Shown one piece after another: positions 13,574 through 46,951 of a stretch of 49,130 nucleotides of DNA (positions are counted from its first letter, which is position 1; every line of letters starts with the position of its first letter). This stretch comes from a virus. The translations under genes were made by a program, and so were the position numbers. The notes beneath the pieces are model-generated. The model saw only the letters and a program-made list of their open reading frames with translations, was not told the DNA's origin and ran no database searches. The stretch is from positions 1 through 49,130 of the IMG/VR virus record IMGVR_UViG_3300022221_000011; one strand, given 5' to 3'.

Positions 13574-13659
13574 TTATAACACGCCATTCAACCAGATGGC
13601 AAATAGCGGTTTCTTTTCCAGTGGGCAGGTTTGCGCCACTGGTTAATTCATAGTCATAA
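13574..13659 (+). repeat. attC site, last of array B
   Basis: R'' TTATAAC 13574-13580. L'' ATTCAACCAGATGGC, L' GCCACTGGTTAAT, right core degenerate GTCATAA 13653-13659. No ORF lies to its right, only the promoter. Confidence 0.75.
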
Positions 13660-13662
13660 GTA

Positions 13663-13690
13663 ATTTTACCACACCGGAATATAATGTCAA
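13663..13690 (-). promoter_or_regulatory. Sigma-70 promoter reading into array B
   Basis: On the minus strand: TTGACA (13690-13685), 16-bp spacer, TAAAAT (13668-13663). Predicted start near 13656, inside the last attC. It lies directly after the late terminator, so it separates array expression from the late operon. Confidence 0.75.
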
Positions 13691-13713
13691 GTAAATATTT
13701 ACATATTATAGAC

Positions 13714-13742
13714 AAAAAAGAAGCCACATTTTAAGTGGCTTC
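13714..13742 (-). terminator. Intrinsic terminator of late operon
   Basis: Perfect 8-bp stem GAAGCCAC/GTGGCTTC with a 7-nt loop followed by TTTTTT on the minus strand, five bases after the o-spanin stop. Confidence 0.9.
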
Positions 13743-13746
13743 AATA

Positions 13747-13959
13747 CTATCTACCCAAACAGCGTTTATATTCTTGTATGATCTCGTATAAATACCCTGA
13801 TTCAAGGCACATATACTTTTCATCGGTAGGATGGTTAATTATCTGCTTTCCGTCCGGTAGTATTACCGTTTTTCTCTTTAAGCATCCTGTAGTAATGGTC
13901 AAGCTCAACAGCAATAAAATCAACGTCTTTTTCTGCAAAGGCTTTGTCAAGTTTTTCAT
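13747..13959 (-). CDS. o-spanin (Rz1-like outer-membrane lipoprotein)
   Basis: 70 aa with a basic N-terminus, hydrophobic run LILLLLSLTI and lipobox TTGC (Cys 26), so a lipoprotein. It starts inside the i-spanin gene in another reading frame, the classic Rz/Rz1 overlap. Works with 13835-14050 to fuse inner and outer membranes at lysis. The mature part is short and Cys-containing. Confidence 0.8.
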   Translation of the reverse strand: MKNLTKPLQKKTLILLLLSLTITTGCLKRKTVILPDGKQIINHPTDEKYMCLESGYLYEIIQEYKRCLGR

Positions 13960-14050
13960 CTGCTCGCTTCTCTTTAGCTTCTTTAGATAGTACTAGCTCA
14001 ACAACAACGCATAATATACTTAACAGGCTAGCAATTATAGTAGTTGTCAT
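13835..14050 (-). CDS. i-spanin (Rz-like)
   Basis: 71 aa: one N-terminal membrane segment (IIASLLSILCVVVELVL) then a charged periplasmic coiled coil (SKEAKEKRADEKLDKAFAEKD). ATGA overlap with the upstream holin candidate. Shorter than lambda Rz but has the right topology and overlaps the lipoprotein gene. Confidence 0.75.
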   Translation of the reverse strand: MTTTIIASLLSILCVVVELVLSKEAKEKRADEKLDKAFAEKDVDFIAVELDHYYRMLKEKNGNTTGRKADN

Positions 14051-14238
14051 TTCGTGACAGCTTTTGCACCCTTATGGGTCAGTCCGGTACCCGTAAAGAT
14101 GTAGGCCAGATTTTTAAGTCCCTCTGCAATATCAGGATATGCAAAGGCGGTTGCTATATCGGACAATGCAAAGCAAGTCGCCCCTATAGCCGTTTTCTTA
14201 TTGTTGAAAAATGTCCAAATCTTTAAAACGTGTTCCAT
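14047..14238 (-). CDS. Putative holin-like protein (63 aa)
   Basis: Small protein with two moderately hydrophobic segments (AIGATCFALSDIATAFAY and LAYIFTGTGL), directly upstream of the spanins and downstream of the amidase. Position and size suit a holin or pinholin. No specific family is recognised. Confidence 0.5.
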   Translation of the reverse strand: MEHVLKIWTFFNNKKTAIGATCFALSDIATAFAYPDIAEGLKNLAYIFTGTGLTHKGAKAVTK

Positions 14239-14239
14239 G

Positions 14240-14402
14240 ATTTATCCTTTCTTTTTAGTTTTTATCCAAAATACAAAATGATTTAATGACCATGTTTGCC
14301 ACGGCCTATTTATTCTAAGTGTGAAATATGGAGTTATGAGGCTCCAGCAATGAACGCCGCTTAATACGGCGTAGCAATTATATTTTATGTTAGATAGGTA
14401 CA
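14240..14402. other. Non-coding gap with possible orphan attC-like site
   Basis: Contains an RBS for 14047-14238 and, at about 14333-14395, an inverted repeat CGCCG/CGGCG followed by TTTTATGTTAGAT, whose core (14389-14395) matches GTTRRRY. No convincing R'' core, so this may be a relic or chance. Confidence 0.3.
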
Positions 14403-14903
14403 TTATATTGTAAGCCCTAAGTCCTTAATAAATTGAAGCCACGGGAAACCGTCTCCTGGGTCTATTTTTCGAGAAGGATCTACATCTGAATGTCTATCGA
14501 GGCGAAGCATATTCAACTCCTCGACCCACTCCCGCCTTATGATATCGACCCCGGCCGCGTATTCCGCATCGGTTAAATACGGCTCTTTAATAGTCTCGAT
14601 AAAAGTTCCGTAATCATGTACCCCAGGCACTAAAAACTCCGCGCCGAGAGTCCCAATATTGTAGCCTTTAGCGTGCCACGCTATTTGATTATTCCGCCGA
14701 CACCGCGTAACGTCGCCCGACGGGTGTATCAGTAAGTGGGCGGACCACCCGCATCTTATAAGCCAATCGGCGGCACTGTATACCGTTCCGTCGTCGTCTT
14801 TAATAAACTCCCCCATAGCGTGAATTATTCCTCGCTTCGGGGTATTGCCATCGCGGCCGTACGGGCTGGGGGTATTAATTATGTCATATGAGCCTCTACT
14901 CAT
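14403..14903 (-). CDS. Endolysin, N-acetylmuramoyl-L-alanine amidase
   Basis: 166 aa, Amidase_2/PGRP fold. Zinc and catalytic residues: His in IIHAMGEF (about 28), His in IAWHAKGYN (about 76) and the late LDRHSDVDPSRKIDPG with His and Lys. Cuts the peptide stem from glycan in peptidoglycan. No signal peptide, so it needs a holin. Codons are visibly more GC-rich than neighbours, suggesting separate acquisition. RBS AAGGAGGAACACAGACG. Confidence 0.9.
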   Translation of the reverse strand: MSRGSYDIINTPSPYGRDGNTPKRGIIHAMGEFIKDDDGTVYSAADWLIRCGWSAHLLIHPSGDVTRCRRNNQIAWHAKGYNIGTLGAEFLVPGVHDYGTFIETIKEPYLTDAEYAAGVDIIRREWVEELNMLRLDRHSDVDPSRKIDPGDGFPWLQFIKDLGLTI

Positions 14904-15174
14904 CGTCTGTGTTCCTCCTTAGGGGTAGACCGTCCTTTTTTCTCTCCTCTTTTTCAGCTTCTTGCCGCTCAATAGATGCCGCCATAGCATTATCTTTTCT
15001 TTTGGCGGCCCTATTCCTGCCTATAATCGTAAAGGCAACTACCGCACCGAGTATTGCCGTTATAAGGTTAAAGACCTGAGTTAATCCCCCAATAGTCAGT
15101 ACAGTCGCGGCAAGTTTCTGAAATAAGGGATTTCCCGCTACATCTTCCACAATCCTCTTTAATTCTTCGCTCAA
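14896..15174 (-). CDS. Putative holin (TTG start, 92 aa)
   Basis: TTG at 15174 directly after GAGGAAGAGGAG. Hydrophobic region at residues about 22-50 (one long or two short segments), then a strongly charged cytoplasmic tail (RNRAAKRKDN, EAEKEERKKD). Overlaps the amidase start by 8 nt and begins within 15068-15274 in another frame. Holin by topology and position. Confidence 0.55.
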   Translation of the reverse strand: MSEELKRIVEDVAGNPLFQKLAATVLTIGGLTQVFNLITAILGAVVAFTIIGRNRAAKRKDNAMAASIERQEAEKEERKKDGLPLRRNTDDE

Positions 15175-15274
15175 GCTCCTCTTCCTCTCTTGCCCTGTAA
15201 TAAATAGTGATGACTTTCAAGAGGATTAGGGTAAAAGTCACTATCCCCAAAATCATTCTTATAGTATCTTCCAC
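15068..15274 (-). CDS. Small membrane protein with Cys cluster (68 aa)
   Basis: One N-terminal membrane helix (IRMILGIVTFTLILLKVITIYY), a basic/acidic helix, then CGRC...CRDC, a possible zinc site. Overlaps the following holin-like gene by 107 nt. The two overlapping frames both look coding. Function unknown. Confidence 0.5.
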   Translation of the reverse strand: MEDTIRMILGIVTFTLILLKVITIYYRAREEEELERRIKEDCGRCSGKSLISETCRDCTDYWGINSGL

Positions 15275-15656
15275 GCCTCATATCCCCTTCCCATGTTATT
15301 AGCGCTGAAATGACATACAAGTATAAAATAACAAAGGAGAATTCATGCCAGCATGGATCAAAATAATTCTCGTACAATATCCACCCTATCCCGTTTAGAC
15401 AAACATCTATCACACATACCAGCATTAATGTAGTCACTAACTCAGTCTTTCGACAAAGAGACAACATCCCGGTTATGAGTAAAGCAAGTATCATTCCAAG
15501 GAAGTAATGTCTATAATCTCCAATATCTCCAAGGAAGAACATGTATGCCCATGTACCTGTTGCAAATATTATAGACGGCGCAGTTACTATTGCCCCATAC
15601 CTAGTAGCTTGCACCGCTACAATAAGGCATATCAATATTGACAGCCAATCATTCAT
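15171..15656 (-). CDS. Polytopic membrane protein (161 aa)
   Basis: About five hydrophobic helices through residue 125, then a soluble Tyr/Pro-rich tail ending in GKRGRGA. The ATG at 15656 overlaps the stop of the 16-residue ORF (TGATG). Unrecognised. Membrane placement near the lysis genes suggests a role in lysis or exclusion (inference). Confidence 0.55.
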   Translation of the reverse strand: MNDWLSILICLIVAVQATRYGAIVTAPSIIFATGTWAYMFFLGDIGDYRHYFLGMILALLITGMLSLCRKTELVTTLMLVCVIDVCLNGIGWILYENYFDPCWHEFSFVILYLYVISALITWEGDMRRGRYYKNDFGDSDFYPNPLESHHYLLQGKRGRGA

Positions 15657-15706
15657 CACTTGCCCTTACCCTTGCCTTTTTTCTTCGGTCCTCTTTTGCC
15701 TGGCAT
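15656..15706 (-). CDS. Sixteen-residue basic micro-ORF
   Basis: ATG at 15706 behind a perfect AAGGAGG. Encodes MPGKRGPKKKGKGKGK and stops in a TGATG overlap with the next gene. Very short and basic, like the other tiny Lys-rich ORFs at 36459-37008. Confidence 0.45.
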   Translation of the reverse strand: MPGKRGPKKKGKGKGK

Positions 15707-15716
15707 ATTAACCTCC

Positions 15717-15995
15717 TTATTTAATTACCCATCCGCCTTCAGTGCATATATTTATTGTTCCATCTGTTTTTATGTGCATCAATCCTATTGTGTCACATGC
15801 ACCTATATTTGTATACAACCCAAATACTACGTCAGACCCTACTATATCTGTCCCATGCCCCTCATCATTTACAAACGATACGTGAGCTTCAGATGCTTCA
15901 GGGTATGTAACGTAATTACTGGGGATATGTCCTAGTTTAAGGGTAATAGCAGAAACACAAAGCACCAAAACACCTACAAGTAAATATCTCATCAT
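15717..15995 (-). CDS. Exported or membrane-anchored protein (92 aa)
   Basis: N-terminal hydrophobic signal/anchor (YLLVGVLVLCVSAI), then a beta-rich domain with two Cys. Unrecognised. Grouped with two further signal-peptide proteins upstream. Confidence 0.5.
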   Translation of the reverse strand: MMRYLLVGVLVLCVSAITLKLGHIPSNYVTYPEASEAHVSFVNDEGHGTDIVGSDVVFGLYTNIGACDTIGLMHIKTDGTINICTEGGWVIK

Positions 15996-16002
15996 ATCCT
16001 CC

Positions 16003-16494
16003 TTAAGGCCAGTTTACCATAGTTGATACATTAAAGAAAGTAATAGAACCATGACCCGTATAATTGTTTAACGTTGTTTCGGCGTCTAGCCACGGCTGAT
16101 AATGACTTATAGCCTTTGACTTAGATACTGTAGCTTGCCTAGCTGCTGGCGCAATACTAAGCCAATCATTGTAGGCTATGACTAATGCATCCCATGATTC
16201 ATAACAGAGACCGGATGTGCGGCAAGTGTGCTCAATTCCCTTTGCGTTTAACTCTGCCAGCTTATCGTCTTTTGCCTTTTTTTTATTGCAAGCCGCCATG
16301 TATGTTACTATCTGCGCCTCAGACGGCTTCGCCCCTGCACCTTCCGGCCACGTCCTTATCTCTGTCCCAGAAGAGTTCATAACAAACGAAACCGTATCGC
16401 CGTATTGCATCGATATTGCCCTCATTTTCGAGCATTCTTCAGCGTTAACGGCTAATGGTGTGAGCAATAGAAAAATAATCACGTATCTTTTCAT
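16003..16494 (-). CDS. Secreted protein of unknown function (163 aa)
   Basis: Clear signal peptide MKRYVIIFLLLTPLAVNA with AxA-type cleavage before EECSK. Several Cys in the mature part (ECSK, AACNKKK, HTCRTSGLCY) suggest disulphides in the periplasm. Resembles phage tail-associated or host-surface proteins only in context. ATGA-type overlap with 16491-17126. Confidence 0.6.
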   Translation of the reverse strand: MKRYVIIFLLLTPLAVNAEECSKMRAISMQYGDTVSFVMNSSGTEIRTWPEGAGAKPSEAQIVTYMAACNKKKAKDDKLAELNAKGIEHTCRTSGLCYESWDALVIAYNDWLSIAPAARQATVSKSKAISHYQPWLDAETTLNNYTGHGSITFFNVSTMVNWP

Positions 16495-17126
16495 TTCAGA
16501 ACCTCCCGTATTTTTAAACCGCCGTTCGATGCGCTTCCGAAGATATCAACTCCGGTTAAAGGAGCGCCTATATATAAATTCCCCGCATTTGCCCCGCATC
16601 TCACAGTAAATAACTTTTCATCTGTATTTGAATTATCATATTCATGATATAGCCACATAATATCCTCACTATTACTCGCATTTGCCCCGCGAACATATAC
16701 AGCTTCAATACTTGTGGTGTTTATAAACGGTGCGAACAGGGCGCATTCTGCCAAAGAACTACTTGTGACTGGCGCTACAGTGGAATGGTACTCTATTTCT
16801 AAAATAGAATTTTCACTCAAAGGCTGATAATTTATGCGCCTCACCTCTACGCCCTCACCTATAAGCGGCTCCGTAGCATCGAACGGAATTATGACTGTAG
16901 ATAATATAACACTCGATAAGGGGACAAAAGATGTCTTCGTGTAAATACCGGGGTTGAAACTTGAGGTATAAGCAGCGAAGTCAGCGGCAGTGAGCCTAGC
17001 GGTAGACGTATATGCTATAAACGCTGCGTTATTACCCTGCCTGTGTATCCCGCCTCCGCCACCAAGAGCAAAGGATAGGGTGGTTGTTAGTACCATGAAT
17101 AATGTCAATGTGAGTATTTTTCTCAT
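16491..17126 (-). CDS. Secreted glycine-containing protein (211 aa)
   Basis: Signal peptide MRKILTLTLFMVLTTTLSFA, then GGGGGIHRQG and a beta-rich Ser/Thr-rich domain. Phage virion proteins rarely carry Sec signals, so this may act on the host envelope or be a moron product. Unrecognised. Confidence 0.55.
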   Translation of the reverse strand: MRKILTLTLFMVLTTTLSFALGGGGGIHRQGNNAAFIAYTSTARLTAADFAAYTSSFNPGIYTKTSFVPLSSVILSTVIIPFDATEPLIGEGVEVRRINYQPLSENSILEIEYHSTVAPVTSSSLAECALFAPFINTTSIEAVYVRGANASNSEDIMWLYHEYDNSNTDEKLFTVRCGANAGNLYIGAPLTGVDIFGSASNGGLKIREVLK

Positions 17127-17135
17127 CTTACCTCC

Positions 17136-19628
17136 TCAATAACCTTCTACTGCAAATTTTTCTTCAGGCTCATCTTCCATCATTTTCTTATATCCATACA
17201 TTCCCATTCTCATCATGTTTTCATCTACCATCTTATCTATCAACTTAGGCGCTGCCTTTCTCTTGGCTATAGTAACGAGTGTTTTAGCAAAATCAGGATC
17301 AAACATAGCTCTAGTAATAAGCCCATGAACCTGTTCTTCACTATACTTAGAAAAAAGACCTTGCATGTGAATGATAAAGTTTATAGGTGCCCACTTACCG
17401 TATATCATACCTACCGACCCAAGTGTCATGCCAGACACTAGCTTTTCTGCCGTATCGGAGCCACTTGCAATAGGCGACCTAATGTTCCTGTCGAGTATCT
17501 GGTAGGCTTTTTGAACGTCCTTCAGGGCGCTGAATTCCTTTGGCGTATAAAGAACCTTCATGGCTGGCTCAAACCTTTGCATCAATTGATTCATCTTGGA
17601 TGAACTTATGATTGGATTGTTCAGCAAATCAATACCCTGAAGCCTTGATTGCTCTAGTATGTGGTCTTTGAGCGCCTTCTTAAGTCCCTGTTCTGCTCTT
17701 ACGTCCCCCTTAACAACATTCAGTAATTCTCTTGTAACTTCAGCCGTTTGCCTGCCAGACTTTCCAGTAAATGCCTCAGCGAATGCTTTCTGTGCATCTA
17801 CCCCTAAAATCTTCGATGCTACTGATTTGTTAAAGTTATCCTGTAATGCTTTTGCTCCAATAATCAATTCTTGAGCTTTTTTTATTCCTGCGAAATCTCC
17901 ATCAATACCCAACCTCTTTAACTTAGGTTGATTATTCGTCATCCATCGGTTAAACGAAGACGGTATCAATTCTCCTGTGGTAGGGTTGGTAGCCTTAGTA
18001 AGTAGATCATGTGCTGCGAAATCTTTCATTGCCATTTTCGCATTTTCATTACCACCTGCTGCCTTAACAAAGTCATCTACCGTATCCAAATTATTGAAAA
18101 ATCTATCGGCAATATTGGAATTTTGTATTCTTGTTAACTCTCCCCTTCTGCCAGCCTGAGTTACATCAGCTACCGTTCCCTGCTTGTACGTTTTAACGTA
18201 GTTCTTGTATAGTTCAGTGGCCTTATCGAATTGGTTGGCAACCTCTGGCCTTGTGTTCCTTATCTTATTTATCGTATGCTCTACGGCGTTTTGTGCCCTA
18301 TTGAGGCGTTCTATTTTTGAAAAGTTTGGAGTTGCAGAAGCCTCTATAGCCCTCCTCTCCCTCATCAATATCGTCCTAAGACCCCTAAGGTCTTGAAATC
18401 CATATGTCTTTTGCTTTCCTAGCACCTTAATAGCATTAGTTATGACTTCTGGAACATTCCCCTTTATTTGCTCAAACGCACCCCCACCAACCTCAAGCGG
18501 CTTAGTTGCGAGATTCTTAAAGGCTGGGAGCATATCATCTAGGTCGATCTGAATATTGGGAATAGCGTCATATTCAGCAGTAACCCTATCCTTGACAACC
18601 CTCTTAGCACCCTGCATTTCTGCATGAATAACCCTTCCAGAATCTTGTGGATTCATGCCCTTTGAGAGGTTAGACATTTCGGCCTGAATTGCTCTCTGGG
18701 CAGTTTTATTAGCGGCTTCAATAGAAGCCTGCCTTGCTTGCGCTGCGGTTATCGTGTCATCCATTCCTGCTCCAGCCGGGAACAAATCATCCAATTGCTG
18801 TTGGATAGTAGATGATGACTCGGCCCTTTGGTTCAGTAAAAGATTGGGTTCCTTAATCTCTATGGACCTTTCCATCTGAACTAGCTTCGGGTCTTTTGTT
18901 AATTGGGAAATAGTGAACCTAATCCCTGGTATTCTCTTTTCTATCTCCCTTGCCTCTTTTGCGTTAGCAGCGTATATTGGCCCCTCGGTTGTCATAGCCA
19001 TCAAATACCTACCTGCTTGCTGCTCTAACCTCTTGCCAGAAAACGCAGGTATAGAGTCTCTAATAGCCCTTGTTGCCTTAATTCCAACCCTTGCCCCCGC
19101 GCCCAATAATCTGCCACCAGCCTCCATTTTTAGACCATAGTAAACATCTTTAGGTATTTCTTCTAATTCCTCTATTACGGTTTTCCTATCCCTGAGGCCC
19201 AGAGAGGATGTTATCAACTCTCCAACTTCCTTGCCACCAGCATATCCTAGTGCGCCACCAGTAATACCCCCAACAGTAGTGCCAACCCCAGGGCCACCCA
19301 CAACGGTCCCACCAGCAGCGCCAACTATTGCACCGCCAACACCACCTATAGTTTCTGCTGCTGTCTCTATGGTTTGTTTGACAGTTTCCCTTGATGGTGT
19401 CAAGGCTTCCCTTGTTGCGCCCATTCCCGTATCTGTAACTTCTGGACCAAGCGCAGCGCCAAAGGGGTCGAATGCACCGGCATCTCCTACGCCTGTAGGT
19501 ACTGGAGGTGGCGCTACCTCTTGAGGCTTGGAATCTATGTATTCCTTTAGAGCCGCCTCTATGGTTTCGTTTGGAGTGCCATCTGGAAATTCAACTATTT
19601 GTCCAGTATCTCCGATCTCTATCTCCAT
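17136..19628 (-). CDS. Large internal virion / DNA-ejection protein (830 aa)
   Basis: N-terminal short domain (IEIGDTGQIVEFPDGTPNETIEAAL, as in many virion proteins), then a Gly/Ala membrane-like stretch at about 85-145 (IVGAAGGTVVGG and similar), a long helical coiled-coil body, and a C-terminal domain. The organisation matches podoviral ejection proteins that form a trans-envelope channel. Specific homology not established. Confidence 0.6.
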   Translation of the reverse strand: MEIEIGDTGQIVEFPDGTPNETIEAALKEYIDSKPQEVAPPPVPTGVGDAGAFDPFGAALGPEVTDTGMGATREALTPSRETVKQTIETAAETIGGVGGAIVGAAGGTVVGGPGVGTTVGGITGGALGYAGGKEVGELITSSLGLRDRKTVIEELEEIPKDVYYGLKMEAGGRLLGAGARVGIKATRAIRDSIPAFSGKRLEQQAGRYLMAMTTEGPIYAANAKEAREIEKRIPGIRFTISQLTKDPKLVQMERSIEIKEPNLLLNQRAESSSTIQQQLDDLFPAGAGMDDTITAAQARQASIEAANKTAQRAIQAEMSNLSKGMNPQDSGRVIHAEMQGAKRVVKDRVTAEYDAIPNIQIDLDDMLPAFKNLATKPLEVGGGAFEQIKGNVPEVITNAIKVLGKQKTYGFQDLRGLRTILMRERRAIEASATPNFSKIERLNRAQNAVEHTINKIRNTRPEVANQFDKATELYKNYVKTYKQGTVADVTQAGRRGELTRIQNSNIADRFFNNLDTVDDFVKAAGGNENAKMAMKDFAAHDLLTKATNPTTGELIPSSFNRWMTNNQPKLKRLGIDGDFAGIKKAQELIIGAKALQDNFNKSVASKILGVDAQKAFAEAFTGKSGRQTAEVTRELLNVVKGDVRAEQGLKKALKDHILEQSRLQGIDLLNNPIISSSKMNQLMQRFEPAMKVLYTPKEFSALKDVQKAYQILDRNIRSPIASGSDTAEKLVSGMTLGSVGMIYGKWAPINFIIHMQGLFSKYSEEQVHGLITRAMFDPDFAKTLVTIAKRKAAPKLIDKMVDENMMRMGMYGYKKMMEDEPEEKFAVEGY

Positions 19629-27082: not shown

Positions 27083-28006
27083 TTAGCTAACGATATGGCC
27101 GTAAATCCATCTCCAATCCCTATACCCATAGGAACATCTGTAGTATACGCTAGTCTTGAGTTGTTTCGTCTCATAGTCTACCGTATTTTCAATTTCAGGA
27201 TTTACACGGTTAAACCATACAGCATCACGCTTCATCATGTCCTTATCGACCATATACCAGTTGTTGGTATCGTAGTCATCAAGACGAAGGTAAGGAATAA
27301 CCTCATACCGACCGTACTGGTTATTCTTCGTGTGGTTAGCCGTTTCATACCCCTTAGGAGTGCCTACAAGCTCGTCAGCCGTATCAGCGAGGTTGTCCGG
27401 CACTACAAGGGCCAGATTATCCCCAACTTCAATACGCTCACCGATATCGTTCCTGAACTGCCTCATGAGAATCCTGGTAGCAGCTACAGCAGTTTTGCTG
27501 AGAGCCGAAGTACCAGAGTTATCGAAACCAGAAGCAGTAGAGGCTCCAGACCTTGAAGCGTGAGAGCTAGAAACAAGAGCTACACCCTCTTCGTTAGTCA
27601 TGAAGTCAAAAGCACTAGAAGCTGAGTTAGCGAAAAGCCTTACAGCTTGCTTCTCTTTTGACCTACCAGCGGATTCCATAAGACCAGCAGCCCTTGCGTC
27701 AAGAACAGCATACTTCTTGTCGTCAATAAGCTTCCGCTCTACCATTATACCACCGGCATATTCCTTGTGTTCAATCTTCCTGTGAAACTCAGGAGAAATA
27801 GGAAGGTAGGAAATCTTCCCATTGAATTCAGGGATATCAGGAACCGCCCCGATATCAAGAAACTCTTCCCAAGCACTGTCAGAAGACATTACATTGAAGA
27901 ACGTAGGAATCATAGAGGCAAGCTCCTTGTGACGCCTTTCACCTACATCCTTAAGCCTTTTGTCAAGAAGGCGTACAAACTGAGAACTATCTAATGGACT
28001 ACCCAT
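27083..28006 (-). CDS. Major capsid protein (HK97 fold, Mu gpT-like)
   Basis: 307 aa. Sequence blocks typical of this capsid group: FNVMSSDSAWEEFLDIGAVPDIPEF, EYAGGIMVERKLIDD, LFANSASSAFDF, NLALVVPDNLADTA and a C-terminal YRCSYGYRDWRWIYGH. Follows scaffold and precedes the adaptor. Forms the shell. Confidence 0.8.
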   Translation of the reverse strand: MGSPLDSSQFVRLLDKRLKDVGERRHKELASMIPTFFNVMSSDSAWEEFLDIGAVPDIPEFNGKISYLPISPEFHRKIEHKEYAGGIMVERKLIDDKKYAVLDARAAGLMESAGRSKEKQAVRLFANSASSAFDFMTNEEGVALVSSSHASRSGASTASGFDNSGTSALSKTAVAATRILMRQFRNDIGERIEVGDNLALVVPDNLADTADELVGTPKGYETANHTKNNQYGRYEVIPYLRLDDYDTNNWYMVDKDMMKRDAVWFNRVNPEIENTVDYETKQLKTSVYYRCSYGYRDWRWIYGHIVS

Positions 28007-30901: not shown

Positions 30902-31197
30902 TTATTTATCTCTTGTATGTTAATAAGGTAGCTATTTATCTTTGTTCCCCATCCCAAGAGGATTCCTTTCAAGGCTCTAAACTCTGCTTTCTCTTGTGGT
31001 GTGGCTGTTTCATCTATTACCTTATCAAGCAAACCCTCCATCCTGATTAGTGCATCCGACATAAGCTCCTGCCCTACCGGACTCTCTATTGCAGACATGA
31101 ACGCTTGATTTTTCCCCAAAGTATTGAGAACCCTTGCGGCTTTCTTCCCAGACGTTTGCAGGAACCTATTGATTGATTCTGTGCTTAGCTTTTCCAT
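30898..31197 (-). CDS. Hypothetical protein downstream of portal (99 aa)
   Basis: All-helical (INRFLQTSGKKAARVLNTLG, PQEKAEFRALKGILLGW). One-base overlap with the portal stop. Possibly a head or portal cofactor. No family recognised. Confidence 0.5.
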   Translation of the reverse strand: MEKLSTESINRFLQTSGKKAARVLNTLGKNQAFMSAIESPVGQELMSDALIRMEGLLDKVIDETATPQEKAEFRALKGILLGWGTKINSYLINIQEINK

Positions 31198-33137
31198 TAC
31201 ATCGCTCCTCTAACTGATTGTTCTGCCATTGATTGAGGTAAACCAGACTGATTACTTGTCGGTAAAGCCATACCTTCTGTCTGAACAGGCGCTCCCTGCT
31301 CCATAGGCACTGCTTCGTCAAACAAATTGCCTGCAATATTTACAAATTCATCACCCCACAGCTCGTAAACCTTCTTAAGTAGGCTGTTTATTACTTTTAC
31401 AGCGTCAGGATGTTGAACATTAGTCGTATACCCGTAAAGCTGAATTGCCCTCTGAATCTTAATGTCTTTAGACTGATCTGTTTCTATAGAGGCACTTACG
31501 GGCCTATAGTAGTAATCTTTTCTTGGGTCAAAGTCTTTCAGCTTGTTGCCCATCAGCTTCCTTGCTGTAGGCTCTTTGGCAAAAGCGTACGTCATCTGTT
31601 GGATCATCCAATAAAGCTCAAATGCAGCCGTATTTTCAAACGTCATGGCCTTATAATTAGACCTCATATCCGTTCTTGACTCTGCACCGGCCACCGCCGT
31701 AGCCGTAGTACTGGCTGCAACGGGCGTAGAACCCATTGTGGTAGGATAAATAGACATAACCTTGTCCATACCACCCGTAAGCATTGATAGCTGCTGTAAA
31801 GACCCGTTAATATTGTCAGAGATAACTATTTCCTGCAAATCGTCAGGGTGATTTAGAGGAATAGTGTGTCCCGGCTCCATATAGACTGAATCATTATCAT
31901 CAAGCTCATACTTCTTGCCCTTAAATGTCGGGATGGTCGCCAATCTAACCCTGTCATTGCTCATGTTGAACGTATCGTCTATGGCAATCTGTAGTTCACG
32001 GCTATACTTACCGTCTCCAGCGCCGTTATCCCTTGAGGGATGAACGTAACAAAGACCTCTTATGATCGGCTTATAAGGTACGCCGTCTGCATCAAGGTAA
32101 GGAGTAAGGTTAAATCCTATCAGAACCTTAGTACTGCCGGAAACAGCGTGGGTAATGATGGTTTCCTGAAGCTCGGCACTCTTCAAGATGTTTCCATCAG
32201 CATCAATCCCAGGCTCTGCCTTAACAGGGACGCCTTTTCCGTCTCTTTCCGTTACCTTTACCCAAAACAAGCCATACCTTCTGAGTATATCGAAGGGTTT
32301 ATTGCCCTTGAGGTTGATCTTTATATGTTCATCTTCCTTATTGTACGTTTCGCTAGATGTTTCAGTCTCGTCGGTTGCTATATCTTCCTTGGTATCCTTG
32401 TCTACCAATTTGTCAAGGTTAAAATAGCCATGCCTGTCAGCGTCTACATACAATTCGTTAAGTGTTTTCTCACTTCTAATGATGATAAACGGCTTATCCT
32501 GGAGCGTATAAACGTAAGAATTATCAGTAAATACGTTCCTTGGGTCTATAACATCATAATTAAACCTGTCTATAACCGGAACCTCTTCTTCTATGTCAAC
32601 AACCTCTATGCCCCTTGCAGGTATTTGAGTAGTTAAGTCCGTGATTTGATTGCCTAATTCGTCTACATCAAGGTCTACTATCCTTTCTTCCTGCCCCACC
32701 ACCATAGGGTTAAGCTCTTGCTCCCACCAGCATTCGAGGTATACGCTTCCGACGAGATGATTGATTGTTTTAGCCCTAACATATTTCGGGTAATGGTGAA
32801 GATGCTTCTGATTAAGCGTCCTGTTGATAAGTTCTTTTGCCGCATCAGCACTACCCTTGGCTTCATCTCCTTCATCCTCTACATAAACCTCTATGAAATC
32901 TCTGGTTTTAAAGTATTGAGCAACATCTATGGAACTCTGGGTCAGCATATGAGAAGTAAACTCAGGAAGGCTAATATCGCTCATCCAGTCGTAATCTTTC
33001 TCTGACCTTTCAGCGTCGAACAGGTCTATAAACGATTCGTACTCTTCGTTATCATACTGCCTGTTTGTTTTGGCAGTAAAGTACTCGTTGTCTATAACGA
33101 TAGATGTGATCTGGTCTTCTACGTCTTTTTTCGCCAT
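31197..33137 (-). CDS. Portal protein (646 aa)
   Basis: Begins with an acidic region and MSDISLPEFTSHMLTQSSIDVAQYFKTRDF, with the wing-domain strand GSVYLECWWEQEL and long helices later (SNDRVRLATIPTFKGKKYEL, ATAVAGAESRTDMRSNYK). Size and order relative to TerL match podoviral-type portals. Forms the dodecameric DNA-entry vertex. RBS AGGGAAGGGC. Confidence 0.75.
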   Translation of the reverse strand: MAKKDVEDQITSIVIDNEYFTAKTNRQYDNEEYESFIDLFDAERSEKDYDWMSDISLPEFTSHMLTQSSIDVAQYFKTRDFIEVYVEDEGDEAKGSADAAKELINRTLNQKHLHHYPKYVRAKTINHLVGSVYLECWWEQELNPMVVGQEERIVDLDVDELGNQITDLTTQIPARGIEVVDIEEEVPVIDRFNYDVIDPRNVFTDNSYVYTLQDKPFIIIRSEKTLNELYVDADRHGYFNLDKLVDKDTKEDIATDETETSSETYNKEDEHIKINLKGNKPFDILRRYGLFWVKVTERDGKGVPVKAEPGIDADGNILKSAELQETIITHAVSGSTKVLIGFNLTPYLDADGVPYKPIIRGLCYVHPSRDNGAGDGKYSRELQIAIDDTFNMSNDRVRLATIPTFKGKKYELDDNDSVYMEPGHTIPLNHPDDLQEIVISDNINGSLQQLSMLTGGMDKVMSIYPTTMGSTPVAASTTATAVAGAESRTDMRSNYKAMTFENTAAFELYWMIQQMTYAFAKEPTARKLMGNKLKDFDPRKDYYYRPVSASIETDQSKDIKIQRAIQLYGYTTNVQHPDAVKVINSLLKKVYELWGDEFVNIAGNLFDEAVPMEQGAPVQTEGMALPTSNQSGLPQSMAEQSVRGAM

Positions 33138-40368: not shown

Positions 40369-40390
40369 AAACGAAAGGAGGGAATGAAAA

Positions 40391-40600: not shown

Positions 40601-40601
40601 A

Positions 40602-41286: not shown

Positions 41287-41320
41287 AACCGTATAGCATT
41301 TTCAACCGGAGAGTAGGCAG

Positions 41321-41368
41321 TCAAGGCAATTAAAGGCTTCAAAACTAATAAAGGAGGGTAAAAAAATG
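41321..41368 (+). repeat. Repeated gene leader, copy 1
   Basis: GTCAAGGCAATTAAA...AAAACTAATAAAGGAGGGTAA, almost identical to 41766-41816; both end at an ATG. Confidence 0.7.
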
Positions 41369-41722: not shown

Positions 41723-41765
41723 AAGGAAGGGGCGAAAGCCTCTCTTATTTGGTTGAATAATGGGT

Positions 41766-41816
41766 AGTCAAGGCAATTAAAAGGTTTTAAAACTAATAAA
41801 GGAGGGTAAGAAAATG
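41766..41816 (+). repeat. Repeated gene leader, copy 2
   Basis: Second copy of the 41321-41368 leader before 41814-42017. Confidence 0.7.
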
Positions 41817-42017: not shown

Positions 42018-42034
42018 GCAAAGAGGAGGGTAAA

Positions 42035-42205
42035 ATGAAAACCATAAGTAAGTATCATTCGTCAGTATCAAGGAAGGGGTTGGATATAATGTGCCCTAAA
42101 TGTGGGCAAGGGTCTACTGTTTATCATCTCGCATGGAATACCTCGATTTGTCAAAGGTGTGGCAAAGAAGTTAAGAAAACGGAATATATCAAGAGGGAGG
42201 TTTAA
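42035..42205 (+). CDS. Zinc-ribbon protein (56 aa)
   Basis: MKTISKYHSS, then CPKCGQGS and CQRCGKEVKK: classic four-Cys ribbon. GGAGGGTAAA before this ATG; an upstream ATG at 42014 overlaps the previous stop and is possible. Confidence 0.6.
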   Translation: MKTISKYHSSVSRKGLDIMCPKCGQGSTVYHLAWNTSICQRCGKEVKKTEYIKREV

Positions 42206-42367
42206 ATGATTAAAATATACTACAAGGGAAAGATTTTATTCTGTATGCCGGACTTCGTAACACCTGTTCAGCTCTTTGTAGCCTGTAAGATCATGCAAGA
42301 GAAATTAAACCTGCCTGACGGCAATCTTGCTTTCAGGCGGGGGGATTGTATCAAAATAAAAGAATAA
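42206..42367 (+). CDS. Small hypothetical protein (53 aa)
   Basis: MIKIYYKGKILFCMPDFVTPVQLFVACK; beta start then helix; GGGAGGTTTAA upstream. Unrecognised. Confidence 0.5.
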   Translation: MIKIYYKGKILFCMPDFVTPVQLFVACKIMQEKLNLPDGNLAFRRGDCIKIKE

Positions 42368-42378
42368 AGGGGGTATTT

Positions 42379-42591
42379 ATGTCAAGAGGAAATCATCCCT
42401 GGAGGAACAACAGGGTAAATAAGTTTCCTAAAAGTCCAAAGGGCGATACAAGGACATTTAGGGAGAAAATATGTCTTAATTGCAAGCGTACTTATCGCCC
42501 AACTAACGGAAGGCAATTATACTGCAAGGAATGCCGGGCTATAAGATATGCTGATGATCTGCTGGAATCTTTAGGTGATAGTGCCTATTAA
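42379..42591 (+). CDS. Zinc-finger protein (70 aa)
   Basis: MSRGNHPWRNNRVNKF, basic, then CLNCKRTY and YCKECRAI: four-Cys zinc site. Likely nucleic-acid binding. Common form in phage accessory genes. Confidence 0.6.
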   Translation: MSRGNHPWRNNRVNKFPKSPKGDTRTFREKICLNCKRTYRPTNGRQLYCKECRAIRYADDLLESLGDSAY

Positions 42592-42635
42592 ATGTCTGAT
42601 GAATATTACAGGAGAGATAAGGAAGAGAGGGAAAT

Positions 42636-42842
42636 ATGTATATGATCTGTAATTTTCAACGGCTACTTAAAGAAAGAAGTCCACATTATAAAATTGGCGA
42701 TATAGTTTTTGCAGAAAAAGAGCCATTAGATAAGCCGTTTATATCTCACGGCATATGCAAGGATTGCTTCAAAATATCTATGGCGGATATCGACAGAGAT
42801 GAACTCAAGGAAATACAAGACGAAGGGAGGGAAACCGTATGA
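42636..42842 (+). CDS. Hypothetical protein (68 aa)
   Basis: MYMICNFQRLLKERSPHYKIGDIVF, then HGICKDCFKIS and an acidic end; one Cys pair. Unrecognised. Confidence 0.5.
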   Translation: MYMICNFQRLLKERSPHYKIGDIVFAEKEPLDKPFISHGICKDCFKISMADIDRDELKEIQDEGRETV

Positions 42843-42898
42843 GTCTTTTAATCGTAACAGTAGTCATATGGGTTGCTTATGAAATCCTCTTTGGCTGA
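42839..42898 (+). CDS. Membrane micro-ORF (19 aa)
   Basis: MSLLIVTVVIWVAYEILFG in an ATGA overlap with the previous gene; a single hydrophobic helix. Confidence 0.4.
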   Translation: MSLLIVTVVIWVAYEILFG

Positions 42899-43067
42899 GT
42901 ATAAGGAATGTAGTAGAGGCGAGAAGCCTAAAATGCGGTTCAGAACGTCGAGGATTGCGCTCAAGGCCATTTCTCGAATGAAGAAGGCTGGTAGACCGTA
43001 TGAAACTTTAACCGCCTATAAATGCCGATTCTGTGATTATTGGCATATAGGCAATAGGAGGAACTAA
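42879..43067 (+). CDS. Small zinc-finger phage protein (62 aa)
   Basis: MKSSLAEYKECSRGEKPKMRF, AISRMKKAGRPYETLTAYKCRFCDYWHIG: Cx2C with a following His, as in small phage proteins that bind nucleic acid. Overlaps the micro-ORF. Confidence 0.55.
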   Translation: MKSSLAEYKECSRGEKPKMRFRTSRIALKAISRMKKAGRPYETLTAYKCRFCDYWHIGNRRN

Positions 43068-43240
43068 TGGAGCGTAAAAAGATCATCCCAGGTTGGTATA
43101 TTTGGGAGCGATGGAATACAGCCTTAATCATGAGGGCTAGGCGTGCAGGATATACAAGTACACAACAATTCATTTTGCGTATTATAGAAGATGTGATATG
43201 CGGTAAAATAAGGATAGAGAGGGAGGACAAAAATGATTAA
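43067..43240 (+). CDS. Small basic hypothetical protein (57 aa)
   Basis: MERKKIIPGWYIWERWNTALI, then a basic helix and DKND; ATAGGAGGAACTA upstream and TAATG overlap. Confidence 0.5.
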   Translation: MERKKIIPGWYIWERWNTALIMRARRAGYTSTQQFILRIIEDVICGKIRIEREDKND

Positions 43241-43397
43241 CCTACTCAAATTGATCGGCTCTATACTGGTAATCGTATTGATGTTTTACATGCAAGGCTG
43301 CACCATAAAGATTAACTGCAAGGAAGTTGATTCTATTAACTTCTATAATGGAGAGGAGACGACAGAAGAAATACCCGTAAGTTATAAAGGGGCTTAA
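43233..43397 (+). CDS. Lipoprotein (54 aa), last gene of plus operon
   Basis: MINLLKLIGSILVIVLMFYMQGC: signal helix and lipobox with Cys 23, then a short acidic mature part. Overlaps the previous gene in another frame. An outer-membrane lipoprotein could act in exclusion or as an extra spanin part (inference). Confidence 0.55.
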   Translation: MINLLKLIGSILVIVLMFYMQGCTIKINCKEVDSINFYNGEETTEEIPVSYKGA

Positions 43398-43415
43398 AAA
43401 GCCCCTTGTTTTTTA
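43387..43415 (+). terminator. Intrinsic terminator of plus operon
   Basis: AAGGGGC/GCCCCTT stem with a 7-nt loop, then TTGTTTTTT, overlapping the last codons of 43233-43397. Confidence 0.85.
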
Positions 43416-43463
43416 TTGTTCCCGAACATTGTTTCGGTAACATAGGATAAGTGCTTGATTATA

Positions 43464-43676
43464 TTAATTCTTCCAATGTCCTACTTGCTTCAACCCCTTA
43501 GTTAATCGCTCTTTGTATCTATCCAAACCTTTAATAGTAAAGTTGTCGGTGAGTTCTTTTTCAAGTGATTCGTACGCTTCGGGGTATTCAGTTTTTAGCT
43601 TAGTTATTCCACCCTTAATGTATCCTTCATTTATCTCACATATCACCTTATGGCTATACTCGTCTATTTGTCCCAT
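43464..43676 (-). CDS. Hypothetical protein (70 aa)
   Basis: MGQIDEYSHKVICEINEGYIKG, wholly helical and charged. Overlaps the helicase gene by 13 nt. Unrecognised. Confidence 0.5.
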   Translation of the reverse strand: MGQIDEYSHKVICEINEGYIKGGITKLKTEYPEAYESLEKELTDNFTIKGLDRYKERLTKGLKQVGHWKN

Positions 43677-44791
43677 GCAAACCTATCCTCCTTTTTTCTT
43701 GAATTTGCCCAAATTTGCTGCTCTATGGTTACTATCTCTTGACCGGCTCTCTTCTCCTTAACTACCTTACCCCATCCACTAGCCTTAATCAATCTACCAC
43801 CGTTGCCAAATTCATAATTACAAGCCAAACCGTCTATATTGCATTCCTCCTCTACAGGGTCTTTAAGTTTATTGATTTGAAGTATCTTGTTATCAAGGGT
43901 AACGGCCAGTGCAGCTTTTTCTATAGTGCCGTGCCCACCTTTACCAAACGTACTACCTGGGCTTTTCTGTAGTAAGATAATGGCTATGCCTTCGTTCAGC
44001 TTATCAAATATAGCCTCGATCTGTCCACTTACCTTCCAAGCTTCGTCGTGTATCTCAAGGAAGTCTATAATATTAAGTCCGTCAGGTTCTATCACATCAC
44101 CGAAGTTTCTTGACCTGCTTATAAACTCTACCTGCCTGGCCTTATCTTCCCTGAATTTAAAATTCTTTAGCCTACGCCTAAGATTAGAAGGCGACCACTC
44201 TGAGGCACAATATCTTATCTTGAACGCCTCACAGTTCTTCTCGGCCACCTCTAAGGTGAATCCGCTCTTGCCTTGATTAGATACACCGGCTACCATTATG
44301 ATTGATTTACGGGGTATATTAACCTTGTCATGTAGATCAAAGGGAAGTTGTATAGGCAATACATCATCATCTGCCTCCCACCAGTTAATAACATTAAGCT
44401 CTTTATTAACCTTCCTGTATCTACCGTTTACCTTCTCATCCTTCTCAAGTACACCCTTATCACAAAACCGTAGTATGGCAACCCTAATGGCCGTCTTGTC
44501 TTTAGCATCGATAGCATGGAGTTCGTGATAACATTGTTGTAGAGAGAAATAACCAGAAGTACCGCCAATCCATTCCTCTACCTCATGGCTCCAGCTTATA
44601 CTGGTATTACCATCTATTGCCAATTCACAAATATCGTTAGCAAGAGACTCTACTTCTTTTGGTTTTGAATCAGGAGAGGCAAATTTGATAGACTTACAAA
44701 TTCGCTTGAATAGGTTTTCTTTAGGATAACCACCCTTAATAAGGCAATAGGCCAGAAATACTAACTCTGTTTTGTCTTTTTCTTTTAACAT
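43664..44791 (-). CDS. Replication ATPase of the RecA/DnaB-helicase type (375 aa)
   Basis: N-terminal ~140 residues form a helical/winged domain (YHELHAIDAKDKTAIRVAILRFC), then a RecA core: Walker A GVSNQGKSG (about 168), EWSPSNLRRRL, a GLNIIDFLEIHD strand, IAIILLQKS as Walker B region. Resembles AAA_25/DnaB-like phage helicases. Lies just downstream of the origin-like region. Confidence 0.7.
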   Translation of the reverse strand: MLKEKDKTELVFLAYCLIKGGYPKENLFKRICKSIKFASPDSKPKEVESLANDICELAIDGNTSISWSHEVEEWIGGTSGYFSLQQCYHELHAIDAKDKTAIRVAILRFCDKGVLEKDEKVNGRYRKVNKELNVINWWEADDDVLPIQLPFDLHDKVNIPRKSIIMVAGVSNQGKSGFTLEVAEKNCEAFKIRYCASEWSPSNLRRRLKNFKFREDKARQVEFISRSRNFGDVIEPDGLNIIDFLEIHDEAWKVSGQIEAIFDKLNEGIAIILLQKSPGSTFGKGGHGTIEKAALAVTLDNKILQINKLKDPVEEECNIDGLACNYEFGNGGRLIKASGWGKVVKEKRAGQEIVTIEQQIWANSRKKEDRFAWDK

Positions 44792-44844
44792 AAAAAGACC
44801 GCCGCCTTGCCTGACACCAATTCTAGCATACTTCTTGCCCCCTG

Positions 44845-44990
44845 TAAATAAAAAAATTAATATCTATTATTTTCAATTACTTGCCCTGTGGATAACTTTA
44901 TGGACAATATGTGGATAACTATAGTTGTTACAAGATAGTAACATGAAAGTTACAATATGTTACATGGATACTCAATTTGTTACATCGCGT
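44845..44990. other. Putative replication origin
   Basis: AT-rich stretch 44848-44880, two perfect DnaA boxes (TGTGGATAA at 44887-44895 and 44910-44918), then at least eight GTTAC or inverse repeats from about 44926 to 45015, running into the end of the HNH gene. Typical of an iteron-plus-DnaA origin. Confidence 0.6.
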
Positions 44991-45283
44991 TACTTGTTGT
45001 TACATCCTGTTACAGCGGCTTCAGATAACGCTTTAATTATGCGCATATAGGCATCAACTATTTTTTCATCAGGGCTAGCTCCGCAATGGCAATCTTCACA
45101 TAAAGTTGTAAGCGCAGATTCATCGTAGTCCCAAGGTTCCGTATTTGGAGTGTAATACTTATGGTGTACGTGAAGAGTCTTGACGCCTGAATAGCATTCT
45201 GAGCATACCCACGCATCACGTTCCAATATCTGTAGACGCTTCTTTTGCCATCGTGGGTCTTTCAGTTTTTCAGAATATGTCAT
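44990..45283 (-). CDS. HNH endonuclease (97 aa)
   Basis: DPRWQKKRLQILERDAWVCSECYSG, HVHHKYYTPNTEPWDY, LTTLCEDCH: complete HNH with two Cys pairs and the HxHH site. Small stand-alone HNH beside replication genes, as in many phages. Its 3' end carries origin repeats. Confidence 0.85.
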   Translation of the reverse strand: MTYSEKLKDPRWQKKRLQILERDAWVCSECYSGVKTLHVHHKYYTPNTEPWDYDESALTTLCEDCHCGASPDEKIVDAYMRIIKALSEAAVTGCNNK

Positions 45284-45342
45284 CTTGCCTCCTTAATAAC
45301 TTCTTAATACTGCCCACCTGTAAAGATGAGCAGGTTAAAAAG

Positions 45343-45708
45343 TTATTTCAGCTTTTTAACAATTACTTCTGTTATCGCCTCTCCCAAGACAGTATGGTCG
45401 AGGATAAAATCACGGTTATCATTAAAGAAGTAATCTAATTCTCTTTCAATTACTCCATCAATATTTTTCTCAAATTGCTTACCGAAGTCTTTTTTATTTT
45501 TTATTGCTTCTACTATTTTGGCCGTAAGGTGCTCATTTACTTCTTTCTGTACTATCTTGGTTAGAGATAAACCAGAAAGAAGCTCCCTGACCTTGATATC
45601 ACCTATATTGGCTATCAAGTGAGCAACCAAAGCATCTTTTATCTTCTCCTTGTCCTCCTTTCCCATTAGTGGTAGTAACATCGTTGCTAGCGTATTAATG
45701 TCGTTCAT
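45343..45708 (-). CDS. Hypothetical replication-block protein (121 aa)
   Basis: All-helical: MNDINTLATMLLPLMGKEDKEKI, LLSGLSLTKIVQKEVNEHL. RBS AAGGAGGAAAG. No family recognised. Might be a small adaptor. Confidence 0.5.
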   Translation of the reverse strand: MNDINTLATMLLPLMGKEDKEKIKDALVAHLIANIGDIKVRELLSGLSLTKIVQKEVNEHLTAKIVEAIKNKKDFGKQFEKNIDGVIERELDYFFNDNRDFILDHTVLGEAITEVIVKKLK

Positions 45709-45773
45709 TCTTTCCTCCTTGTTTAGTTGTTTTATTCCTTATGTAGGGCTATCCAGTTACCGTTTTTCAAGGG

Positions 45774-45959
45774 CTACTCATCCTCCTTAATGGATTGTTG
45801 GTATAGTCTACCCTTATCTATTCTCTCTCCAGTATCAGCATTGTATAGCTCGATACCAGGCAGATTAAATAAATGCCGATGTGATTCTTTTTGGCTAAGA
45901 GGGAACGACCCCATTCTTTTGCCGTCTGCAAATATTATGATTTGGACTTGCTTTGACAT
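45774..45959 (-). CDS. Hypothetical protein (61 aa)
   Basis: MSKQVQIIIFADGKRMGSFPLSQ, beta-rich then acidic; CAGGAGGTGTCCA before ATG. Confidence 0.5.
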   Translation of the reverse strand: MSKQVQIIIFADGKRMGSFPLSQKESHRHLFNLPGIELYNADTGERIDKGRLYQQSIKEDE

Positions 45960-46108
45960 TGGACACCTCCTGTTAAGGTTATGTGAAGAAGCTAAGAGGG
46001 GAGATAACGTAACAGGCGCTATCTATTACCGGCGGCCCACCGAACCCTCATAAGCCAATTTGAATTATTGTATAATAGTAAATAAACATGCATTATACAA
46101 GAAAAAAG

Positions 46109-46276
46109 TTAACCGCAATCAATCCAATATGAAGCCATTATAGACACTACCCATATATACATGAGGCCAACTATCAATGTTGCCGCTAAATGGCGTATAT
46201 GCCCATCCTCGTAAGCGTGAGGCAGGGTTTCAGGTGCAAATAGTTTGTTGTAGATATGCTCTGTGTCTTTATCCAT
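46109..46276 (-). CDS. Small membrane protein (55 aa)
   Basis: Start MDKDTEHIYNKLF; a soluble charged N-half then one helix (LAATLIVGLMYIWVVSIMASYW). Overlaps the HNH gene by 8 nt. Confidence 0.5.
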   Translation of the reverse strand: MDKDTEHIYNKLFAPETLPHAYEDGHIRHLAATLIVGLMYIWVVSIMASYWIDCG

Positions 46277-46589
46277 CCAGTATCTTCCTTTTAATATGTT
46301 CCTCATCATGGCAATCGGGACAAAGGACTTCAAGCATAGAAGGGTCACAAAGTATTTCCTTGCATATCAAGTCGATTACTTCATTCCACACCTCTATTCC
46401 ACCAGAACGGTGATGAACCTCAACCTTCTGCTCCCTTCCCTTGGCTTTACTCTGCTTTACCCCGCAATTTTCACAACAATATCCAGCATTCTTTAAAGCT
46501 GCCGCACGCTCTCTGCTCCTTAGGTATAGGCTTCGTATTGCCGCCCTCACTTTACTCCTTGGTGTTCCTGTTAGCCGCTTACCCATCAA
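46269..46589 (-). CDS. HNH endonuclease (106 aa)
   Basis: GYCCENCGVKQSKAKGREQKVEVHHRSGG, LICKEILCDPSMLEVLCPDCHDEEH: HNH fold with four Cys and an EVHH site, basic N-terminus. Common phage type. Second of three HNH genes in this genome. Confidence 0.85.
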   Translation of the reverse strand: MMGKRLTGTPRSKVRAAIRSLYLRSRERAAALKNAGYCCENCGVKQSKAKGREQKVEVHHRSGGIEVWNEVIDLICKEILCDPSMLEVLCPDCHDEEHIKRKILDG

Positions 46590-46908
46590 ACCTCCCGTAA
46601 TTATCCAGCTTTTCTTTTGCCAACCATGAAGAAAATCTATGCGTGCCCATCTTAACTAGGCCATCATCCTTCAGTAATATCAAACCATTGTCGCAAACAT
46701 TCCATGAGTCTCTACGGTCATGGGCCATAAACATGAAGATAGTGTCTTCCCTTACACCGGAAGGACTATGTTGTTTTATGTTGATCTCTTTGTAGAAATC
46801 TCTAGTGTTAATATCCGGGGGCCTCTCTTCTGCTCTTAGTTCAATGACCCGAAGCCTCGCCCTGGTCATGTTGTCTGCATGTTTTGGTGTTATTTTATGA
46901 GTTAACAT
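46579..46908 (-). CDS. Hypothetical protein, first of replication block (109 aa)
   Basis: Begins MLTHKITPKHADNMTRARLRV and ends GTHRFSSWLAKEKLDNYGRF; a mixed fold without Cys cluster. RBS AAGGAGGTATT lies directly beside the anchor element of array A. Unrecognised. Confidence 0.55.
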   Translation of the reverse strand: MLTHKITPKHADNMTRARLRVIELRAEERPPDINTRDFYKEINIKQHSPSGVREDTIFMFMAHDRRDSWNVCDNGLILLKDDGLVKMGTHRFSSWLAKEKLDNYGRFDG

Positions 46909-46951
46909 AATACCTCCTTCCGCAAGCGGTCTACATATTATATGGTTATAA
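46900..46951 (+). repeat. attC/attI-like anchor site of array A, with shared 24-bp element 46921-46944
   Basis: Left part AGTTAACATAATA pairs with TATTATATGGTTA; core GTTATAA 46945-46951 begins the first cassette. 46921-46944 is identical to 7841-7864. The left half overlaps the start of 46579-46908. Confidence 0.55.

Follow-up and report, generated by a model that had tools for sequence, protein, structure and literature searches.

How does a tailed phage come to carry 36 integron-type gene cassettes when its genome encodes no integron integrase (IntI)? The question is raised by IMG/VR record IMGVR_UViG_3300022221_000011, whose whole sequence of 49,130 bases (b) was analysed here and is referred to as the window. 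We found that the window holds two arrays of cassettes bounded by attC sites, that most of the cassette genes face backwards relative to these sites, and that arrays of the same type recur in several unrelated phages, some with an integrase of their own. The reading that we favour, with a probability of about 0.72, is that the window phage is one of several unrelated tailed phages with cassette arrays in their own genomes, sharing a pool that is moved by an integrase acting in trans.

The arrays are built from attC sites and complete cassettes

Array 1 runs from 46945 to the right contig end and continues from position 1 to about 5344 (19 cassettes, one of them divided by the contig ends), and array 2 extends from 7864 to about 13659 (17 cassettes). 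Counted by their borders, the 36 cassettes take up 13,324 b, or 27.1% of the contig. The + strand of both arrays shows repeated R''-L''...L'-R' sites, and the last R' of each array is degenerate (GCTATCC in array 1). Cassette borders alone served to call about 7 of the 36 attCs, these being degenerate or very long (up to 340 b). Among the cassette open reading frames (ORFs) at 1028-1327, 1369-1695 and 2880-3035, some start or sit in the loop of a very long attC (about 125-200 b), the gene overlapping the site.

An Rfam scan of the window at the gathering threshold returned zero matches, and we therefore built attC models of our own. Searching for R''/R' pairs with a hand-written regular expression admitted far too many sites, and start/R'' pairing and covariance models took its place. 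The first model, R1, was built from the aligned arms of 25 window attCs, in which the L''/L' helix pairs in 92% of cells, with two-sided changes in five of seven pairs. The covariation score of this helix, 0.349, falls to about 0.1 or less when the partner is slid by one column, and the extra base lies on the same side, the left arm of L''/L', in all aligned sites. R1 gave 24 matches in the window at E<=10, every one on the + strand and within the arrays. A second, independent model, R2, was trained on 11 attCs from elsewhere (those of class 1 integrons, phage TJE1 and a Kovacikia plasmid). It gave nine matches, all within the arrays and eight on the + strand; the ninth repeats one of these eight, read in reverse and more weakly. 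R1 in turn detected class 1 attCs that it had not seen in training, those of aadA (E=1.5e-4), cmlA and aadB. Single-strand folding of the attC bottom strand was only mildly better than that of shuffles (z from +0.1 to -3.5) and is not our main evidence. Some window attCs resemble each other at 70-90% identity.

The bases that directly follow the cleavage point between G and TT (G/TT) in a true cassette pair with that cassette's own R'', both being derived from one circle. Over 32 cassettes, with eight bases each, the outer bases of R'' matched the cassette's own start at 215 of 256 positions and the start of the next cassette at 83 of 256; starts permuted in 10,000 rounds gave a mean of 97 matches of 256 (standard deviation 8.7, maximum 134). 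Some of the 32 start/R'' pairs had been chosen with the help of that match, and the test was rerun on neighbouring model matches alone. In this unbiased subset the own start matched at 49 of 56 positions and the next at 10 of 56, with 22 +/- 6 in permutations. The outer bases of R' and R'' fail to match in place. The window sites are attCs and the units are complete cassettes; the complementarity between own start and R'' is the mark of units that move as circles. Phage intergenic terminators imitating attC would also place hairpins between small ORFs, and some of the hairpins are indeed terminator-like, but a model of known attCs detects the sites, the extra base stays on one side throughout and the starts are complementary to R''. 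We reject this explanation as hardly credible.

The arrays belong to a tailed-phage genome

The window proteins include a portal protein, a major head protein and an amidase, each above the Pfam cut-off (PF23899, PF10124/PF25209 and PF01510, respectively). No tRNA genes were found in the 49,130 b. The contig ends, 49051-49130 and 1-118, are exact copies of both ends of the cassette at 47818-48098, and 83 b are missing between them. Because the window ends sit in two copies of one cassette, the genome closes with these 83 b missing; most likely the assembly was interrupted within a duplicated cassette of a genome that is circular or circularly permuted. Identity between the two copies ends exactly at the G/TT borders.

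Searches of viral contigs led to arrays in other phages. The window's terminase-region protein as query returned 11 contigs, among them a relative of the window phage (G005; 61% identity in the terminase-region protein, 58% in the portal and 57% in the head protein) that has a smaller array. An attC 18-mer as query returned G001, a contig with myovirus-like tail genes, and G002. The latter, from another metagenome assembly, is an unrelated tailed phage (TerL, portal, head, tape measure, DnaB and Erf) of 36,694 b, whose 127-b exact terminal repeat closes it into a circle of 36,567 b. G006 (L023), also related to the window phage, has a strong lone attC-like match (38 bits) at the very end of its contig (36710-36765), possibly an array running off it.

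These observations bear on whether phage and integron contigs were joined in assembly. The source is a metagenome record whose contig ends lie within a repeat, as a chimaera might have it. However, each of the two arrays is embedded between phage genes, and G+C is alike in arrays and phage genes (42-43% vs 40-43%). The array is linked to the phage because the window ends are circle-compatible, G002 is a closed circle with an array and the relative G005 has one too; since the right edge of array 1 is moreover common to G002, we reject a chimaera as very improbable. To this point the first-pass annotation is upheld: it had described arrays at these coordinates, with about 36 attC-like sites of R''-L''-L'-R' architecture, making up about a quarter of a tailed-phage genome, wrapping around the window end and accompanied by no IntI. 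Searches with attC covariance models, of the kind that it had suggested, returned sites in the arrays with R2 as well as with R1.

DNA-level comparison with named phages matched nothing in the arrays except methyltransferase genes, and comparison of array 2 with plasmids gave no match.

An identical cassette in two unrelated phages, and phages that encode IntI

G001 and G002 share a 333-b cassette that is 100% identical between them. The identity runs exactly from G/TT to G/TT and the flanks are unrelated, which is direct evidence that the cassette recently moved from one of these unrelated phages to the other, or into each of them from a single source. This border-exact sharing and the cassette-exact duplication in the window would speak indirectly for recombination by IntI. 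Only one of the two sharing phages has an integrase: IntI adjoins the array in G001, and there is none in G002.

We found IntI beside arrays in five viral contigs, G001, G012, G013, G014 and G021, the last added by a final pattern scan. All five proteins exceed the TIGR02249 cut-off, at 307-317 bits in the first four and 397 bits in G021, a 45.1-kb contig with portal, tape measure, primase, endolysin and head decoration genes. Three of them have an IntI about 80-84% identical to that of G001. No close relative of the G001-type IntI turned up among 84,980 species genomes of bacteria and archaea, by a search that reaches close relatives only. G021 (L053) also has, between its two cassette clusters, a second tyrosine recombinase (6813-7760) that is weakly IntI/Xer-like (46.7 and 24.2 bits). 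Virus Rctr41k (KX853513, L044), a phage from a denitrifying anaerobic methane oxidation (DAMO) enrichment culture, has an annotated 'integrase-like' protein (4680-5678) 40% identical to the phage IntI; R1 found no attC in it.

The window record itself contains no PF00589 or TIGR02249 protein. With at least two nearby attCs (24 by R1, 9 by R2) and no integron integrase, it qualifies as a cluster of attC sites lacking integron integrases (CALIN), not as a complete integron with intI in cis. The first-pass annotation had held that mobility would need a host integrase. The lack of IntI in the record stands, but five array-bearing phage contigs encode one, and a phage infecting the same cell is just as good a candidate for the source.

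Exchange could also have proceeded without any integrase today, phage annealing recombinases shuffling the arrays through short attC homologies. Rad52/Erf-type genes adjoin the arrays (Rad52 at 5668-6393 in the window, Erf in G002), and the likeness among some attCs could supply the homology. Yet the identical and the duplicated cassettes stop exactly at the cleavage point, where homology-driven exchange would not, and the mismatch in place of the outer bases of R' and R'' also speaks against it; we regard this route as quite improbable. The Rad52 protein as query returned no relatives.

Cassette genes are reversed relative to attC

The canonical orientation of the window attCs is +, as judged from the L''/L' asymmetry and both models, and the cassette genes lie on the - strand, with the start codon and a Shine-Dalgarno site adjoining R'' and the stop at the previous R'. 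Instead of reading toward their attC, 32 of the 36 window ORFs with Shine-Dalgarno support are reversed (canonical/reversed 0/19 in array 1 and 4/13 in array 2). The other array-bearing phage contigs gave 1/14 (G002), 0/16 (G001), 0/6 (G005), 1/5 (G012), 0/3 (G014), 0/3 (L049), 1/6 (L050) and 1/12 (L052). Over the nine contigs, 8 canonical ORFs stand against 97 reversed ones (sign test p=1.5e-20, with ORFs treated as independent). By the same reading, class 1 integrons, phage TJE1 and the integron of the cyanobacterial Kovacikia plasmid showed the canonical gene direction. In the literature, bottom-strand selectivity is held to ensure that cassettes are read from the Pc promoter beside attI (PMC11023631). 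The clearest exception in the window is a canonical 55-aa ORF with a good Shine-Dalgarno site (10865-11032, +), whose cassette (10828-11225) holds a reversed ORF too.

Array flanks suggest attI-like sites and transcription with the phage genes

The left flanks of the two window arrays are 84% identical over 45 b, with 24 b identical, and 100 shuffles gave no chance match to this repeat. The exact 24-b sequence was absent from every other viral contig searched, and no copy within 7 mismatches was found in the other loci examined. In G021, two cassette clusters each follow a near-identical flank of about 56 b, one copy of which adjoins intI; by analogy, the repeated window flank is probably a duplicated attI. 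G001, G012 and G014 have another attI-like sequence in common, GATAACCGGAA...ACGGTTAGTTATTG/TTA. The right-flank pattern of array 1, common to G002, was found nowhere else.

The best promoter-like site in the 8.7 kb scanned lies between a terminator-like hairpin and the right end of array 2 (Table 1), and points into the reversed cassettes. Array 1 comes after a minus-strand operon (7802-5395). Judged from this layout, the reversed cassette genes would be in step with phage transcription, and a cassette newly inserted at attI would take the most distant place in the operon.

The arrays might nevertheless be passengers, taken by a host IntI out of an integron in a common host's chromosome (attC x attI or attG-type sites), with the phage making no use of them as a system. 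The record is without IntI, host-acquired phage CALINs are documented (PMC9892861), and the left junctions are plain G/TT borders, as attG-type insertion would give too. We consider this origin unlikely, although a serious contender. Here the genes are reversed as a rule, but the host-type arrays and the other phage arrays that were tested proved canonical; the G001-type IntI occurs in viral contigs and not in bacterial or archaeal genomes, within the reach of a pattern search for close relatives; and the duplicated attI layout recurs in a phage, G021.

Cassette cargo and neighbouring genes

The cargo comprises two N6/N4 methylases, one MT-A70, a DUF3850, a DUF7352 and about 30 small proteins without assigned role. 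The cassette methylases score as type II or orphan methyltransferases, and one of them resembles phage methylases at the DNA level. On these matches, protection against restriction would be their likeliest role. The two N6/N4 methylase cassettes (1740-2577 and 46945-47774) have related ends (79-88% DNA identity) and proteins 34% identical overall, as if the ends were conserved and the gene body replaced.

Two HNH endonuclease genes (44990-45283 and 46269-46589) lie near the left border of array 1. Farther left, a repeat of about 54 b, 91% identical between its copies (41316-41368 and 41763-41816), stands directly upstream of two + strand early ORFs and is perhaps a shared ribosome-binding or regulatory leader.

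Table 1. Features of the window and their coordinates.
Feature	Position	Strand	Remarks
Array 1, first part	46945-49130	genes -, canonical attC +	cassette starts 46945, 47818, 48095, 48740, 49051 (last cut by contig end)
Array 1, first part, R1 matches	47768-47824, 48691-48746, 48971-49057	+	plus start/R'' pairs
Array 1, second part	1-5344	genes -	starts 115, 416, 768, 1018, 1368, 1740, 2642, 3069, 3366, 3683, 3979, 4368, 4681, 5041
Array 2	7864-13659	genes -	starts 7864, 8130, 8456, 8809, 9117, 9434, 9731, 10097, 10476, 10828, 11341, 11837, 12086, ~12440, 12732, 13075, 13351
Candidate attI 1	46900-46944	+	45-b left flank of array 1 ending ...CGCAAGCGGTCTACATATTATATG, then first cassette at G/TT
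Candidate attI 2	7820-7864	+	left flank of array 2, adjoining TTACGC of first cassette
Array 1 right flank	5345-5400		common to unrelated phage G002 (TATCCTTnCTTTAATGnATCCA ... GGACTCAnTGAAACTAAGGAT)
109-aa gene left of array 1	46579-46908	-	homologue (39%) left of G002 array
Duplicated cassette with 75-aa ORF 47839-48066	47818-48098	-	second copy across contig ends (49051-49130 / 83 b missing / 1-118)
N6/N4 DNA methylase cassette gene	46964-47728	-	PF01555
Second N6/N4 DNA methylase cassette gene	1761-2531	-	34% identical to 46964-47728
MT-A70 type methyltransferase cassette gene	48096-48692	-	PF05063, sole MT-A70 match of the set; ORF assigned by its sequence
Cassette gene, probably the DUF3850 match of the set	12733-13011	-	PF12961
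Promoter-like TTGACA-16-TAAAAT	13663-13690	-	11/12, TG before second hexamer; consensus match only
Terminator-like hairpin and T-run	13720-13742	-	would close late (structural/lysis) operon before array 2
Rad52-type annealing protein, between both arrays	5668-6393	-	PF04098 above cut-off
Portal protein, SU10-type	31197-33137	-	Pfam, above cut-off
Major head protein, Mu gpT-like	27083-28006	-	Pfam, above cut-off
N-acetylmuramoyl-L-alanine amidase (endolysin), Amidase_2	14403-14903	-	Pfam, above cut-off

Discussion

The window array is real and part of the phage, and it belongs to a known kind, the phage-borne attC cluster (PMC9892861). Phage CALINs and integrons were described by Qi et al. 2023 (PMC9892861) in TJE1, P12002L, PH101 and prophages of Vibrio anguillarum and Shewanella, and phage attCs were recombined there with attI1 through IntI1. 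The lack of precedent that the first-pass annotation implied does not hold, 17 phage CALINs and 3 complete phage integrons having been reported in that study; it had also passed over the reversed genes, the repeated left flank, the arrays in unrelated phages and the cassette identical in two of them. Like the window, those phages carry attC clusters with or without intI and methyltransferase cargo. The TJE1 cluster differs in being short and canonical, with three attCs on the strand of their genes. The window differs in its 36 cassettes, two arrays, reversed genes and repeated attI-like flank; also unlike those phages, the same array type occurs in several unrelated phages and one cassette is identical between phages. 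The reversed layout and the phage-to-phage cassette exchange appear to be new.

Bacterial integrons offer further comparisons. The 'reverse' integron of Treponema resembles G001 and G021 in having intI and cassette genes on one strand (PMC3607928, PMC4909258). In Treponema, however, intI points toward attI and the cassette stops are reported at R'', the canonical arrangement (PMC3607928, PMC4909258), whereas in the IntI-bearing phage relatives intI is directed away from attI and the cassette genes toward it, which sets them apart from the Treponema type. The sedentary chromosomal superintegron of Vibrio shares with the window large arrays of mostly single small-ORF cassettes of unassigned function, but the window arrays are on a phage, without intI in cis, and have diverse attCs and reversed genes. 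Class 1 mobile integrons (aadA, cmlA, aadB) have the same attC architecture, which the phage-built model detects; unlike in the window, their genes and attC lie on one strand and are expressed from Pc adjoining attI.

We propose that an integron integrase in trans, supplied by a co-infecting IntI phage of the G001, G012-G014 or G021 type or by the host, would excise cassettes as circles, and that these would enter either at an attC or at the attI-like site flanking each array on the left. The cassette genes, backwards relative to attC, would be read toward attI and match minus-strand phage transcription, which may enter array 2 from its right edge (13690-13663) and reach array 1 from the operon at 7802-5395. 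With three DNA methyltransferases and many small proteins, the cargo most likely guards the phage against host defences or helps it to adapt to hosts, and the arrays would serve as an exchangeable accessory module.

Several points weigh against this proposal. There is no IntI in the window or G002 to pair with their arrays, and scans of bacterial genomes for a host, with the attC 18-mer and the IntI protein, gave no usable match. The repeated left flank holds a TATAAT on the - strand, directly upstream of minus-strand genes, and could be a shared promoter or operator, and the candidate attI of the window is not clearly alike to that of G001 or G021. Recombination and transcription of the arrays are predicted from sequence, the source is still a metagenome assembly, and the sign test assumes independent ORFs. 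A bolder version, to which we give slightly less than even odds, is that of a phage-specific integron system: unrelated tailed phages would have a common reverse-facing cassette pool, phage-encoded integrases and a duplicated attI, and IntI-less phages would swap accessory, probably anti-defence, genes in co-infection, independently of bacterial integrons.

Phage genomes are well known as mosaics, but the trade of small accessory genes among unrelated phages is mostly ascribed to homologous recombination of a relaxed kind or to illegitimate recombination. The unrelated phages described here appear to rely on the site-specific cassette system that is best known for moving antibiotic-resistance genes; the borders are precise, and some of these phages bring an integrase of their own. 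The reversed gene direction conflicts with the textbook rule that the strand choice of the integrase ensures reading from the attI-side promoter. If the proposal is true, phage gene exchange would be modular and orderly, clusters of small hypothetical genes would be explained, and there would be a second, phage-borne reservoir of integron cassettes.

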